Program-made: the position numbers and the translations under genes
The notes under the pieces: generated by a model
Databases searched by the model: none
Told to the model about the DNA's origin: nothing
Seen by the model: the letters and a program-made list of their open reading frames with translations, nothing else
Shown: positions 6,916-63,264 of the stretch, one piece after another
How positions within the stretch are numbered: the stretch's first letter is position 1
How the letters are laid out: each line of letters opens with the position of its first letter
Source: Bradyrhizobium betae
GTDB taxonomy: Bacteria; Pseudomonadota; Alphaproteobacteria; Rhizobiales; Xanthobacteraceae
Length of the DNA stretch: 64,000 bases
Assembly (NCBI RefSeq): GCF_008932115.1
Contig: NZ_CP044543.1
Coordinates: 5,214,501 to 5,278,500, forward strand
Direction of reading: 5' to 3'

Positions 6916-7959
6916 TCAGGCTTCCGCCATCACGTCGAGCACCGCGTCGGCAAAGGCCTTCGGCGCCTCCTGCGGCAGATTGTGCCCGATGCCGCCCTTG
7001 ATGGTCCGGTGCGAATAGCGGCCTGAGAATTTCTTCGCGTAGGCGGACGGCTCCGGATGCGGCGCCCCGTTGGCGTCACCCTCCATGGTGATGGTCGGCG
7101 CCGTGATGACAGGCGCTTGCGCCAGCCGCGCCTCGTCGTCGGCGTATCTTGCTTCGCCCTCGGCAAGGCCGAGCCGCCAGCGATAATTATGGATCACGAT
7201 CGCGACATGGTCCGGATTGTCGAACGCCCTGGCGCTGCGATCAAAGGTGGCATCGTCGAAGTGCCATTGCGGCGAGGCGAGCTGCCAGATCAACTTCGAG
7301 AAATCGTGGCGGTATTTGTCATAGCCTTCGCGGCCTCGCTCGGTCGCGAAATAGAACTGGTACCACCATTGCAGCTCGGCCTTCGGCGGCAGCGGTATCT
7401 TGCCGGCCTGCTGGCTGCCGATCAGATAGCCGCTCACCGAGACCATCGCCTTGACCCGCTGCGGCCAGAGCGCCGCGATGATGTTGGCGGTCCGCGCGCC
7501 CCAGTCGAAGCCGGCGATCGTGGCCTTGTCGATTCTGAGTGCGTCCATCAGCGCGACGATGTCCGCCGCGATCGCTGCCGGCTGCCCGTTCCGCATCGTC
7601 GCGTCGGACAGGAAGAGCGTGCTGCCGTAGCCGCGCAAATAAGGCACGATCACGCGATGGCCGGCCGCAGCGAGCAGCGGCGCGACGTCGACGAAAGCGT
7701 GGATGTCGTAGGGCCAGCCGTGCAGCAGGATCACGGCCGGACCGTCAGCGGGGCCTGCCTCGGCATAGCCGACATTGAGCAGGCCGGCGTCGATCTGCTT
7801 CAGCGACGCGAACGCGGTGTTGGCGCCCGGCCTGCCTGCACCGGCAGGCTTCGCCGGCTTGGCGGCAGCCGTGGCGCTCAGCGACAGCTGGGCTGCCGCA
7901 AGTGTCAGGGCGGCGCGTCCGAGGAAGCCGCGGCGTTCGCTGTTGATGGTATCGGACAT
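6916..7959 (-). CDS. Tat-exported alpha/beta hydrolase (epoxide hydrolase/dehalogenase-like)
   Basis: A 347-residue alpha/beta-hydrolase. The N-terminus ERRGFLGRAALTLAAAQLSL is a twin-arginine signal, so the enzyme is predicted to act in the periplasm. After the oxyanion motif HGWPYD, the nucleophile elbow is GFDWGAR, with Asp as the nucleophile as in epoxide hydrolases and haloalkane dehalogenases. The C-terminal GGIGHNLPQE supplies the catalytic His. GGAGGG lies close before the ATG. It is the middle gene of a minus-strand unit. Choice of substrate between epoxide, halide or ester cannot be made from sequence. Confidence 0.85.
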   Translation of the reverse strand: MSDTINSERRGFLGRAALTLAAAQLSLSATAAAKPAKPAGAGRPGANTAFASLKQIDAGLLNVGYAEAGPADGPAVILLHGWPYDIHAFVDVAPLLAAAGHRVIVPYLRGYGSTLFLSDATMRNGQPAAIAADIVALMDALRIDKATIAGFDWGARTANIIAALWPQRVKAMVSVSGYLIGSQQAGKIPLPPKAELQWWYQFYFATERGREGYDKYRHDFSKLIWQLASPQWHFDDATFDRSARAFDNPDHVAIVIHNYRWRLGLAEGEARYADDEARLAQAPVITAPTITMEGDANGAPHPEPSAYAKKFSGRYSHRTIKGGIGHNLPQEAPKAFADAVLDVMAEA

Positions 7960-7986
7960 GGGTCCCTCCTGTGGTCGTTGCCGCCG

Positions 7987-8694
7987 CTACTCGAAGACGG
8001 CGTCGAAGATCTCGACATCCATCAGCACGGGTTTTGCGATCACGGTTCCGTCAGGCCGCAGCGTCTGCGCGCGTCGAAGTGTCGGCACGACGATGCCGCC
8101 AAAACTGTCATGGGCCCAGGAATAGTGTGCGACTTTCATTCCGAAGAGATCGTGATCCGTCCGCCGTTGCAGGGCGTTCTCGTCGAAATAGAAGATCTGC
8201 TCGGGCGCGAGCGTGATCACGCTCGGCGGGAACTGCGCCCGCAGCCGCCGCCATGTTTCGGTGTTCTCACGCCACGGCGCCAGTTCCTCCACCACGACAT
8301 CGGGGTGAGCGAGCAGGAATGGATTGGTCAGATAATTCCAGATCGCTACGCCGCAGAAGAAGACGAGATGCAGTTCGTCCGCCAGCAAAGCAGAGCCGGC
8401 CTCGGGAAACGCAAGGCTCGGATTGCGCCAGCTCCGCAGGACTTCGCCCTCGGGGCTTTCGATGGTGATCGCGTCCGGTTGAAAGGAGCCGGAGTGTTCG
8501 CCTCCCGTAATGCCGGTGAAGCGGACCGACTGCGTCCGGGTCGAACCCTCGGCGGTCACATCCTTGAATTCGCCGGCATGTCCGGCGCTGGAAAACAGCG
8601 TACCGGCGACGGAAAGGTGGAGGGTGAACCGGCTCAAGCTATTCCAGCGGGCGATTCCGCCGCTGGCATCAATTACGTCGTCAAGCAGCGCCAT
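7987..8694 (-). CDS. Uncharacterised protein, 235 residues
   Basis: No family is recognised. The protein starts MALLDDVIDASGGIARW and has no signal peptide or membrane segment. It looks mostly beta-rich, with paired aromatic and acidic strands (for example EQIFYFDENALQRRTDHD and GMKVAHYSWAHDSFGG), which weakly recalls lipid- or ligand-binding beta-sheet proteins. It lies 27 bases upstream of the Tat-exported hydrolase on the same strand and should be co-transcribed with it. A GGCGGGAC stretch precedes the ATG. Confidence 0.7.
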   Translation of the reverse strand: MALLDDVIDASGGIARWNSLSRFTLHLSVAGTLFSSAGHAGEFKDVTAEGSTRTQSVRFTGITGGEHSGSFQPDAITIESPEGEVLRSWRNPSLAFPEAGSALLADELHLVFFCGVAIWNYLTNPFLLAHPDVVVEELAPWRENTETWRRLRAQFPPSVITLAPEQIFYFDENALQRRTDHDLFGMKVAHYSWAHDSFGGIVVPTLRRAQTLRPDGTVIAKPVLMDVEIFDAVFE

Positions 8695-59018: not shown

Positions 59019-59870
<852 letters not shown>

Positions 59871-60003: not shown

Positions 60004-60468
60004 ATGTCGGATCGACTGAAGGCCGAGCGCGAAGCTGCGGTCGCACGGCGGAACCTGCTGACCCAGGATGCGATCGAGCGCACCGGGATTACCGAAGAGA
60101 TGATCGGGGAACTCGTCACCCGTTTCTACGGCCGCGTGCGCGAGGATGCGCTGCTGGGACCGGTGTTCGGCGTCGTGCAGAACTGGGACGAGCATCTCGC
60201 CAAGCTCCGGGATTTCTGGTCGTCGGTCGTCCTGATGAGCGGCCGCTATCATGGCTCGCCGATGCGGGCGCATATGCCGCTGAGCCTCGTCGGCGATCAT
60301 TTCGACCGCTGGCTCGATCTGTTCGAACAGACCGCGCGCGAGGTTTGCCCGCCGCCGGCAGCTGCGCTGTTCATCGACAAGGCGCGGCGCATCGCCGACA
60401 GTTTTGAAATGGCATCGGCGACGATCGCCGGCCGCATCGCCGCGCCGCGTCACGTGCTCAGGTCCTGA
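60004..60468 (+). CDS. Group III truncated haemoglobin
   Basis: A 154-residue globin of the 2-on-2 fold, group III. The proximal haem His is at 90 (PMRAHMPL); FYGRVREDALLGPVFG and WDEHLAKLRDFWSSVVL are characteristic of this group. Group III proteins are linked to NO or oxygen stress and microaerobic life; the exact role is unclear. The ATG at 60004 has AAAGGA very close upstream. It is monocistronic. Confidence 0.9.
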   Translation: MSDRLKAEREAAVARRNLLTQDAIERTGITEEMIGELVTRFYGRVREDALLGPVFGVVQNWDEHLAKLRDFWSSVVLMSGRYHGSPMRAHMPLSLVGDHFDRWLDLFEQTAREVCPPPAAALFIDKARRIADSFEMASATIAGRIAAPRHVLRS

Positions 60469-60729: not shown

Positions 60730-61386
60730 ATGTCGCGCGCATCGCTCAGCACAACGTCCTCATCCTCCGAGAAGATCACTGCGGAACCTGACATCGACGC
60801 GGGTACCGAGCAGACGCGGCGAACGCTGCTGCTTGGTGCGCTCGCGACCACCGCTTGCCTCGGTTGTTCAACGCAGGCTCGCGCGGGCGAGGATCCGCCC
60901 GGCTCCGACGAGCGTCCAAGGAAAGGCGACCAGCTGGTCTTCTCCGACGGTGAGCAGGAAGGAAAGCTGATCACCGCCGCTGATATACCGAAGGGCGGAC
61001 CGCCGCTGCATGCCTGGCCGAAAGATCCGAGCACTTCGGTGGTGCGTAGCGCCTCGCGTCTCAACGAGATCCTGATCATCCGGCTCGATCCCGCCGAGCT
61101 CGACGAGCAAACCCGGGCGCGTGCCGTCGACGGCATCCTCGCCTATTCGGCAATCTGCTCGCATGCCGGCTGTCCCGTCACCGCCTGGGTCAAGAGCGAT
61201 GCCGGCGACAAGGAGGTGTTCAAGTGCATGTGCCACAACTCCGAATACGATCCCCGCGCGGGCGCGCAGGTCGTGTTCGGGCCGGCGCCGCGGCGGCTCG
61301 CCGCCCTGCCGATTGCGCTTGCCGACGGCTCGCTCAGCGTCGCCGGTAACTTCATCGGAAAGGTGGGAGGCGTGCAGCCAGGATGA
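60730..61386 (+). CDS. Tat-exported Rieske [2Fe-2S] protein
   Basis: A 218-residue protein with a twin-arginine signal (TRRTLLLGALATTACLG) and a Rieske domain: C143-x-H145-xx-C148 (CSHAGC) and C166-x-C168-H169 (CMCH). All six residues of the high-potential bc1-type Rieske site, including the two disulfide cysteines, are present. The domain is preceded by about 90 residues without known motif. It lies 126 bases before the PQQ dehydrogenase on the same strand, suggesting it takes electrons from that enzyme or hands them on. This is inference; no cytochrome c gene is adjacent. Confidence 0.87.
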   Translation: MSRASLSTTSSSSEKITAEPDIDAGTEQTRRTLLLGALATTACLGCSTQARAGEDPPGSDERPRKGDQLVFSDGEQEGKLITAADIPKGGPPLHAWPKDPSTSVVRSASRLNEILIIRLDPAELDEQTRARAVDGILAYSAICSHAGCPVTAWVKSDAGDKEVFKCMCHNSEYDPRAGAQVVFGPAPRRLAALPIALADGSLSVAGNFIGKVGGVQPG

Positions 61387-61456
61387 CGGACGGTGCGGGA
61401 TATGCCCGCGTCACGAGAGGCCGCATCCGCCGAGGGGCGGACGACGGGACGACAAG

Positions 61457-61491
61457 AATTCAAAACAACAATTCAAAACAAGAATTCAAAC
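61457..61491. repeat. Tandem 13-base repeat before the PQQ dehydrogenase gene
   Basis: AATTCAAAACAAC, AATTCAAAACAAG and a partial AATTCAAAC lie in direct tandem 21 bases before the ATG. They form an A/T-rich island in GC-rich surroundings, overlapping the untranslated leader. It may be a regulator site, a translation enhancer or a slippage product. Confidence 0.6.
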
Positions 61492-61512
61492 GGATGAAAA
61501 AGGGGAACGTCC

Positions 61513-63264
61513 ATGAAAACCTCCAAGCAAACGTCGGTCACCAGCAAGCAATGGTACCTGTCCGGCTTCGTCGCCTTCACCTGTCTCGTCTCGACCGCCG
61601 CGTTCGCCGGCCCGATCGAGAACTATTCTCCCGTGACCCAGCAGCGCCTGGAGAATCCGGAACCCGGCAACTGGATGCTCTATCGGCGCACCTATGACGG
61701 GCAGGGCTATAGTCCGCTCGACCAGATCAACACCTCGAACGTGAAGACTCTCACGCCGGTCTGGACGTTTGCCACCGGTGTGGTCGAGGGCCACGAGGCG
61801 CCTCCGATCGTCAACAACGGCGTGATGTTCGTAACGACCCCGATGGGACAGGTGATCGCGATCAACGCCAGGACCGGCGACGAATATTGGCGCTACAAGC
61901 GGCAGCTCCCCGACGATCTGTTCCAGTTGCATCCGACCAACCGCGGTGTCGGCCTGTGGGAAGACAAGCTCTATCTCGCCACCACCGACGATCATGTCGT
62001 CGCGCTCGACGCCAAGACTGGCAAGGTGGTGTGGGACACCAAGGTGCAGGACTACAAGAAAGGTCAGTACATGACCCTGATGCCGCTGATCGTCGAGGGC
62101 AAGGTCATCGTCGGCGGCTCCGGCGGTGAGCTCGGCGTGCGCGGCTACGTCGCCGCCTTCGATGCCAAGGAAGGCAAGGAGCTGTGGCGGACCTATACCA
62201 TTCCCGGCGAAGGCGAACCCGGCCACGATACCTGGCAGGGCGACGACTGGAAGACCGGCGGTGGTTCCGCCTGGATGACCGGCAATTACGACAAGGACAC
62301 CAAGACGATCTACTGGGGCGTGGGCAATGCCGCGCCTTGGCCCGGCGAGACGCATCCCGGTGACAATCTCTACACCTCGTCGGTGCTCGCGCTCGATCCG
62401 GGCAACGGCAAGATCAAGACCTATCACCAGTATCACCAGAACGATTCCTGGGACTGGGACGAGGTCGACGCGCCGATGCTGATCGACCTGCAACGCGACG
62501 GCCGCACCATCAAGAGCCTGGTGCATCCCGGCCGCGACGCGATCTTCTGGGTGCTCGAACGCACCCCGACCAAGATCAACTACGTCGCCGGCTGGCCGTT
62601 CGTCGCAACCGACGTCTGGAAGGGCATCGATGCCGAGAGCGGGCGGCCGATCGTCGATCCCGACCACAAGCCGGTCATCGGCAAGCGCGTCGAGTTCTGT
62701 CCGTCGCTATGGGGCGGCAAGGACTGGCCGTCGGCGGCCTACAGCCAGAAGACTGGTCTGGTCTACGTGCCCGCCAACGAGAATTTCTGCGGCGGCTTCA
62801 CCGGCGAGAAGGTTCCGCTCAAGGCGGGCGAGCTCTGGCTCGGCACCAAGCCGGAGGACATCGGCCTCAAGGCGAAGCCGGGAGCGGACCATTTCGGCGA
62901 GCTCCAGGCCTGGGATCCCGCCACGGGCAAGAAGGTGTGGCAGCACAACTTCCCGAAATCCCAGTTGTTCGGTTCGGTGACGGCGACGGCGGGCGATCTC
63001 GTCTTCGTCGGCGGCACCAACGACCGCAACTTCCGCGCCTTCCACGCCAAGACCGGCGAGCTGTTGTGGGAGCAGAAGACCAACTCCGGCATCATGGGCA
63101 TGCCGGTGTCCTATGAGATCGACGGCACCCAGTACATCGCGATCCAGTCTGGCTGGGGCGTCGACGCGCAGCGCATCCAGGATGCGCTCGCGACCAACAA
63201 TATCGGCATCGAGTCCAATGTGCCGCAAGGCGGCGTCGTCTGGGTGTTCGCGCTGAAGAAATGA
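61513..63264 (+). CDS. PQQ-dependent alcohol dehydrogenase, predicted lanthanide type
   Basis: A 583-residue periplasmic quinoprotein. Signal peptide (to about residue 32), then the eight-bladed propeller with W-motifs such as ALDAKTGKVVWDTKV. Active-site residues: Glu206 (GGELGVRG), Asn272 (GNAAPW), catalytic Asp314 and, two residues on, Asp316 (WDWD). The extra Asp is the mark of lanthanide-binding enzymes, where calcium enzymes have Ala. The usual vicinal Cys-Cys before NRG is Gln138-Leu139 here. No cytochrome domain. GGGGAA precedes the ATG. A Rieske protein gene is upstream and a strong terminator follows. Substrate unknown: methanol, ethanol or another alcohol. Confidence 0.9.
   Translation: MKTSKQTSVTSKQWYLSGFVAFTCLVSTAAFAGPIENYSPVTQQRLENPEPGNWMLYRRTYDGQGYSPLDQINTSNVKTLTPVWTFATGVVEGHEAPPIVNNGVMFVTTPMGQVIAINARTGDEYWRYKRQLPDDLFQLHPTNRGVGLWEDKLYLATTDDHVVALDAKTGKVVWDTKVQDYKKGQYMTLMPLIVEGKVIVGGSGGELGVRGYVAAFDAKEGKELWRTYTIPGEGEPGHDTWQGDDWKTGGGSAWMTGNYDKDTKTIYWGVGNAAPWPGETHPGDNLYTSSVLALDPGNGKIKTYHQYHQNDSWDWDEVDAPMLIDLQRDGRTIKSLVHPGRDAIFWVLERTPTKINYVAGWPFVATDVWKGIDAESGRPIVDPDHKPVIGKRVEFCPSLWGGKDWPSAAYSQKTGLVYVPANENFCGGFTGEKVPLKAGELWLGTKPEDIGLKAKPGADHFGELQAWDPATGKKVWQHNFPKSQLFGSVTATAGDLVFVGGTNDRNFRAFHAKTGELLWEQKTNSGIMGMPVSYEIDGTQYIAIQSGWGVDAQRIQDALATNNIGIESNVPQGGVVWVFALKK

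Follow-up and report, generated by a model that had tools for sequence, protein, structure and literature searches.

Alcohol dehydrogenases that depend on pyrroloquinoline quinone (PQQ) and belong to the methanol and ethanol type typically carry a vicinal Cys-Cys pair just before an Asn-Arg-Gly (NRG) motif, and a member without this pair raises the question of where its electrons go. The 64,000-nucleotide stretch of Bradyrhizobium betae DNA analysed here (contig NZ_CP044543.1, positions 5,214,501 to 5,278,500 of the forward strand), which we call the window, contains one such gene at 61513..63264 on the + strand. Its open reading frame begins with an ATG at 61513, ends with a stop codon at 63264, and encodes a protein of 583 amino acids that scores 642.4 bits against TIGR03075 (PQQ-dependent dehydrogenase, methanol/ethanol family), above the cut-off of 480.05. 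A second gene on the same strand, overlooked in the first-pass annotation, lies 126 nucleotides upstream (60730..61386, +) and encodes a Rieske [2Fe-2S] protein of 218 amino acids with a twin-arginine start, which we propose as the electron acceptor of the dehydrogenase. We consider it likely, though well short of certain, that the two genes form a periplasmic module in which a Rieske protein exported by twin-arginine translocation (Tat) serves a probably lanthanide-dependent PQQ alcohol dehydrogenase, and that this enzyme passes electrons to its own Rieske partner and not to cytochrome c.

Both residue features from which the first-pass annotation argued are present. The segment QNDSWDWDEVDAP of the dehydrogenase yields D314-W315-D316 (62452..62460, +), in which the catalytic Asp is followed two residues later by the second Asp that marks lanthanide-dependent PQQ dehydrogenases, and the segment LPDDLFQLHPTNRG has Q138-L139 at the vicinal Cys-Cys site. 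Alignment with PedH, ExaA, two XoxF, two MxaF, and two quinohaemoprotein dehydrogenases confirmed the latter, with Cys-Cys at that site in all of these. E206 (62128..62130, +) and N272 (62326..62328, +) align with the Glu and Asn of PedH, XoxF, and MxaF and, like D314 and W246, are kept in the alignment; we take E206, N272, and D314 to be metal ligands and W246 to be the Trp that stacks on PQQ, as in XoxF and MxaF. The start of the protein looks, by eye, like a Sec-type signal peptide. A structural model has the propeller fold of PedH and others, and among solved structures the lanthanide-dependent PedH was the best match in both sequence and fold. Protein database searches listed the best 120 matches; in the window protein and the 120 listed for it, the site was QL in 120 of 121 and QM in one, and all had DWD. 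The closest of the matches listed, from Bradyrhizobium japonicum, is 96% identical. A match at E<=1e-200 was found in 125 of the 146 Bradyrhizobium genomes searched, four of which (G025, G032, G051, and G053) match only at 57-58% identity. Because the residue combination is kept through the best 120 matches listed, and because most of the Bradyrhizobium genomes searched hold a match to the protein, it is no chance sequence.

The upstream protein has the hallmarks of a complete Rieske protein. It matches PF00355 with 35.3 bits (cut-off 20.3), its best PDB matches are the Thermus Rieske structures 3fou and 1nyk (E about 1e-35), and its AlphaFold2 model has a mean predicted local distance difference test (pLDDT) score of 84.0, with all blocks from residue 61 to 210 at 93 or higher. 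Box I, C143-S-H145-A-G-C148 (61156..61173, +), and box II, C166-M-C168-H169-N-S171 (61225..61242, +), satisfy the C-x-H-x2-C and C-x-C-H-x-S patterns as CSHAGC and CMCHNS. An alignment of 17 Rieske partners shows no variation in the four cluster ligands, the two extra Cys, or the Ser of box II, nor in the twin arginine R30-R31 (60817..60822, +), which points to Tat export. Site predictions for the 126-nucleotide gap between the two genes (61387..61512, +) reported no terminator-like or promoter-like site. A Ser in box II and an extra Cys pair are features of high-potential Rieske proteins, so a step from PQQ to this cluster would be expected to run downhill. We ruled out that the protein is a cytochrome bc1 subunit, because the sole PF00033 (cytochrome b) match in the genome, at C1:1550910-1551464, adjoins a different Rieske gene at C1:1551668; the two lie 3.7 megabases from the Rieske gene of the window, which is thus not encoded with cytochrome b. 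We also rejected the small subunit of arsenite oxidase, since the protein scores 41.5 bits against TIGR02694, under the cut-off of 95.65. Arsenite oxidase AioBA, in which a small Rieske protein accompanies a catalytic subunit in the periplasm, is nonetheless an analogy for the arrangement, although its catalytic subunit carries molybdenum and not PQQ.

The pairing of the two genes holds across genomes. Among 87 Bradyrhizobium-type loci (relatives being the best 80 of 206), a Rieske homologue was found on the same strand and 47-174 nucleotides upstream, counted between match ends, in 86; at the one exception, L085, it lies 4.6 kilobases (kb) upstream on the same strand. A search of the class found a dehydrogenase match at E<=1e-150 in 12 of 387 genomes, two of them Bradyrhizobium, and gave ten loci from other genera with 54-60% identity. 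The corresponding search of the phylum at E<=1e-130 found 14 of 397 genomes, ten of them Bradyrhizobium, and four loci from other genera with 50-59% identity. A same-strand Rieske gene accompanies the dehydrogenase at all 14 of these other-genus loci; it lies upstream of the dehydrogenase at 13 of them and downstream at L130. The distance between the Rieske and dehydrogenase matches rises to about 0.9-1.0 kb at L105 and L106, and a second Bradyrhizobium type (four loci, L116-L119) has an intact Rieske gene downstream of the dehydrogenase. Upstream Rieske genes that look decayed were also seen at L116 (about 7717-8244) and L117 (about 7862-8035), one of which has no box II and the other of which is a 58-amino acid remnant.

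We compared these loci with loci of other PQQ dehydrogenases. A Rieske profile, built from the clade's own Rieske proteins, matched at every one of 26 additional clade loci, 14 of which are from other genera, and at none of 47 control loci, with a Fisher P of about 2e-20 that ignores kinship. A tblastn search with the window Rieske protein alone had already picked out these 26 loci; eight of them are Bradyrhizobium and may overlap in species with some of the 87. The controls comprised 17 loci from an XoxF query and 30 from a query with the third PQQ dehydrogenase of the B. betae genome; their flanks were about 1.5 kb, and shorter upstream for the 30 because that query has no N-terminal part. 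The control enzymes have Cys-Cys in 45 cases, L144 is cut at the Cys site, and L158 reads QI.

Two further searches gave the same picture. In a plasmid collection the dehydrogenase matched ten places in nine records at E<=1e-120, in Roseomonas, Azoarcus, Methylobacterium, Alteromonas, Paracoccus, and Deinococcus, and at each of the ten the dehydrogenase adjoins a Rieske gene in which both boxes are present. The adjoining gene is annotated as Rieske in eight of the nine records, and the ninth, from Methylobacterium aquaticum, comes without a gene table. That plasmid carries two clade members, each with its own Rieske gene, and a CC/DYA enzyme without one. When the search was run in reverse, from the Rieske protein, 6 of 241 class genomes had a family member (E<=1e-15), and in all six it adjoins the dehydrogenase; we infer that the 241 hold no further dehydrogenase-bearing genome, as the Rieske genes of any others would have shown. 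What is new here is this near-constant Rieske partner, its near-exclusive link to one clade of dehydrogenases, and the probable order of events set out below, in which the Rieske link precedes the loss of the disulfide.

In the mechanism that we propose, the dehydrogenase would probably bind a lanthanide through E206, N272, D314, and D316 and, with PQQ, would oxidise an alcohol in the periplasm. PQQH2 would then give electrons singly to the Rieske cluster, presumably within a complex of the two proteins, and the cluster would hand them to cytochrome c or an oxidase. With a partner that is no longer cytochrome c, the Cys-Cys ring would be free to be lost. The disulfide ring of quinoproteins was reportedly described in 1994. 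It is held to take part in electron transfer to the cytochrome partner in passages of PMC8546591 and PMC12997753, and the former still calls the electron route through these enzymes unclear.

A rival reading, unlikely although worth real weight, is that the dehydrogenase instead works with a cytochrome c whose gene lies elsewhere, as its relatives do; the Rieske protein would then have some other role within the operon, for example in redox sensing, in maturation, or as a relay for the neighbouring molybdenum hydroxylase. The window genome does have a methanol-type cytochrome c (TIGR03874, 273 bits, cut-off 162) about 6 kb from the dehydrogenase and together with XoxF, and a homologue of the large subunit of a downstream molybdenum hydroxylase was matched in 81 of the 87 Bradyrhizobium-type loci, with one also annotated in Roseomonas. 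On the other side, the Rieske gene is kept where no hydroxylase was matched (L097/L107, L101/L111, and L102/L112), and the ring that is tied to cytochrome transfer is lost in all clade loci but Deinococcus. Frames with a CxxCH motif are also rare beside the clade: a separate one occurs near 1 of 26 clade loci (L130, where it is short and doubtful), and L122 has a further, overlapping one of an unlikely kind. Near the controls, 28 of 47 loci have such a frame, separate in 15 and overlapping or fused in 14, with one locus in both groups.

The site of the lost disulfide has its own conserved sequence. Where other members have Cys-Cys-Asp-x-Val-Asn-Arg-Gly, the clade has x-x-His-x-Thr-[Asn/Ser]-Arg-Gly, and the window protein has Q138-L139-H140-P-T142-N-R144 (61924..61944, +). 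His140 and Thr142 are present in 26 of 26 clade loci, and in 53 Cys-Cys enzymes place 140 is Asp in 41, Gly in 12, and His in none. The window segment aligns with F260-Q261-H262-V-T264-C-R266 of Escherichia coli glucose dehydrogenase (Gcd), another enzyme without Cys-Cys, in which D466-M-D468 stands opposite D314-W-D316. H262 of Gcd is, we assume, a stand-in for the disulfide; a literature search on this His turned up nothing. We suggest that the H-x-T-x-R-G loop, resembling that of the membrane glucose dehydrogenase, covers the PQQ face that the Cys-Cys ring once faced.

Gcd has a membrane part and uses ubiquinone as its acceptor. The aligned H140-x-T142-x-R144-G and H262-x-T264-x-R266-G loops would therefore also fit a glucose-dehydrogenase-like enzyme that reduces ubiquinone, with the Rieske protein at a later step or at none. 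We regard this as quite improbable: the window protein scores 190 bits against TIGR03074, the glucose/quinate/shikimate family to which Gcd belongs (cut-off 833), versus 642 bits against TIGR03075, and its 583 amino acids compare with 796 in Gcd, membrane part included. Gcd also has N, V, and F opposite E206, N272, and W246. Gcd and the window clade would thus be two ring-less families whose acceptor is, or may be, something other than cytochrome c.

To place the enzyme we used a maximum-likelihood tree of 93 sequences, of which 39 rows fall in the Rieske-linked clade; a Rieske gene was seen for 34 of these, and the other five were taken from the database as proteins, without their gene neighbourhood. 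The tree leaves out the short L144 and the two copies of the genome's own fourth enzyme, along with L185 to L189 and three L006 rows, these last two sets being duplicates of rows already present. A single branch with 100/100 support separates the Rieske-linked enzymes from XoxF/MxaF, PedH/ExaA, and the quinohaemoproteins. Membership in XoxF was rejected on this basis, and the window protein does not fall inside a calcium clade: rows with DWA, the calcium-type sequence, form one nested subclade (100/99) elsewhere in the Rieske-linked clade. The first-pass annotation had taken the missing Cys pair and the Asp-x-Asp together as the mark of a divergent clade. The separate clade is borne out, but the two features are not one package, as DWA members lack the pair too.

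XoxF and MxaF share with the window enzyme the fold and the Glu/Asn/Asp ligands, and XoxF also has D-x-D; they differ in keeping Cys-Cys, in their place in the tree, and in the lack of any Rieske match near the 17 XoxF-query loci. PedH, the lanthanide-dependent ethanol dehydrogenase of Pseudomonas putida, likewise keeps Cys-Cys and groups with ExaA outside the Rieske-linked clade. The sister of the rest of the clade is an enzyme from Deinococcus aetherius that has Cys-Cys, DYD, and an annotated Rieske gene. Because this sister keeps Cys-Cys with a Rieske gene, the Rieske link is probably older than the loss of the disulfide. The 24 nearest relatives of the Deinococcus enzyme among the matches listed (P0242-P0265) also have CC, and the Deinococcus-side edge of the clade is not fixed, since these proteins are known without gene neighbours. 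The simplest order, resting on one Deinococcus row, is probably a Rieske link first, then loss of Cys-Cys with a change to DWD, and then a change of D to A in one subclade.

The second Asp argues that the window dehydrogenase is probably lanthanide-dependent. Part of PMC8546591 describes the additional aspartate of XoxF as essential for coordinating lanthanides, and DWD occurs in 23 of the 26 clade loci as well as in the window protein and all of its best 120 matches listed. An enzyme that relies mostly on calcium, or accepts both metals, is unlikely, even though DxD alone does not fix the metal. Such an enzyme would fit the nested DWA subclade with the same Rieske partner: the other three of the 26 loci combine a missing Cys pair with DWA, as do 6 of the 10 plasmid places. 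E. coli glucose dehydrogenase, with D466-M-D468 at the same place, works with Mg or Ca. A wider set of metals, Ca, Mg, Zn, and Sr, is given for glucose dehydrogenase in a section of PMC11996626. Against calcium stand the DWD counts, the aspartate of XoxF, and the nearest solved structure, that of PedH. Since a Rieske-linked subclade carries DWA, loss of the disulfide does not imply lanthanide use. Lanthanide use by the organism itself is likely because genes for XoxF, the methanol-type cytochrome c, and lanmodulin are all no more than 16 kb away.

Several observations weigh against a lanthanide enzyme that lost its disulfide because it feeds a Rieske protein. Adjacency of the Rieske and dehydrogenase genes can reflect co-regulation only. 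A Rieske partner alone does not require loss of the disulfide, as the Deinococcus member has both Cys-Cys and a Rieske gene. There are also other routes to disulfide loss: the PQQ dehydrogenase of L158 (the same as L185, genome G265) reads QI at the Cys-Cys site, has DWD, and carries CxxCH within its own frame, and no Rieske match was found within about 7.5-9 kb on either side of it (19 kb). The same negative result, within about 7.5-9 kb on either side, was obtained for the fourth PQQ enzyme of the B. betae genome, which has no Cys-Cys. As for the metal, the clade is not bound to lanthanides throughout, because its DWA members share the Rieske partner and, of the best 120 matches listed for one such member, 60 have DWA. 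Residues 311-320 of the dehydrogenase model, the metal-site loop, have a mean pLDDT of 58. A strict one-to-one rule, by which the absence of Cys-Cys equals the presence of Rieske, was dropped: Deinococcus has both, and L158 and the fourth enzyme have neither. This fourth enzyme (L008:8778-10643, -) has no Cys-Cys, DWD, an Asp opposite the metal Glu, and a long branch.

The clade probably already has a name. The window protein, used as a query against the M. aquaticum 1p plasmid, found three PQQ dehydrogenases, two of them Rieske-linked (QL/DWD and AF/DWA) and one CC/DYA. In the available text of PMC7356819, adh4 and adh6 of M. aquaticum 22A have 1p locus tags, both are assigned to PQQ alcohol dehydrogenase (PQQ-ADH) type 6a, and the type 'has not been characterized'. 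The two Rieske-linked 1p enzymes agree with Adh4 and Adh6 in their number and replicon, locus tags being no part of the match, and one of them (L192) is in the tree. Because these enzymes appear to correspond to Adh4 and Adh6, the clade is probably type 6a, and the window enzyme is probably a member of a large, named clade and not a lone oddity. The word Rieske is absent from the main text of PMC7356819 as available, and its section on mutants deals with growth on methanol or ethanol for other enzymes, with Adh4 and Adh6 unmentioned there. Loss of the Cys pair has already been noticed in passing in print, in wording that could also mean that some type 6a members keep Cys-Cys. Elsewhere, part of PMC12628762 gives Bradyrhizobium sp. 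USDA 3456 seven PQQ dehydrogenases of unknown function besides XoxF, and part of PMC11996626 names type 6a among the PQQ dehydrogenases that dominate deep-ocean transcripts. Among the listed titles and abstracts of open-access papers on Rieske with PQQ, quinoprotein, or XoxF, no such pair was described; subscription papers such as Keltjens 2014 lie outside that scope.

Based on the tree and these names, we lean, with some reserve, towards the view that type 6a consists of Rieske-coupled quinoproteins with the Rieske protein as direct acceptor, in which the Rieske link came first, the disulfide was then lost, and one subclade later switched from lanthanide to calcium. If true, this would give PQQ alcohol dehydrogenases a new electron exit and provide a natural test of disulfide ring function, as a ring-less clade with a conserved alternative redox partner allows a direct comparison on the purpose of the ring. 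Should the electrons indeed go to the Rieske protein, the activity of the enzyme may escape assays that rely on cytochrome c.

The window is close to one end of a quinoprotein region. Downstream of the dehydrogenase, at a distance of about 4-8 kb, are genes that, named by eye, are Gfa-like and glutathione-dependent formaldehyde dehydrogenase-like, together with the cytochrome c and XoxF, which carries Cys-Cys and DYD. Beyond XoxF are a third PQQ dehydrogenase and the lanmodulin gene, the latter about 15 kb downstream at L006:16569-17021 (G000:C1:5292568-5293020; NF053806, 172.5 bits, cut-off 135). The third dehydrogenase (L006:14631-16564, -; Cys-Cys, DYD) is split over two frames, by a real break or a sequencing error. 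Accessory genes at L007:2041-8200 encode a SoxYZ-like carrier (TIGR04557), a zinc hydrolase (TIGR04559), a MoxJ-like protein (TIGR03871), and PQQ-linked ABC proteins (TIGR03864 and TIGR03861).

Closer to the pair, an aldA aldehyde dehydrogenase is annotated in Azoarcus, Alteromonas, and Paracoccus. Because molybdenum hydroxylase and aldA genes lie near the pair, oxidation from alcohol through aldehyde to acid fits. Upstream of the Rieske gene in the window are a weak bacterial globin (60004-60468) and a 3-hydroxybutyryl-CoA dehydrogenase (59019-59870), with homologues matched at 71 of the 87 Bradyrhizobium-type loci for the globin and at 63 for the dehydrogenase. Taken with the hydroxylase and aldA, these neighbours suggest alcohol-to-acid oxidation and no particular substrate. 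Small proteins of about 150-185 amino acids are encoded beside several pairs (L116:10213-10668, L193:7515-7976, and L190:9476-10033). A Pfam scan of these three found no family, and the one at L116 clusters with frames in L108, L117, and L118.

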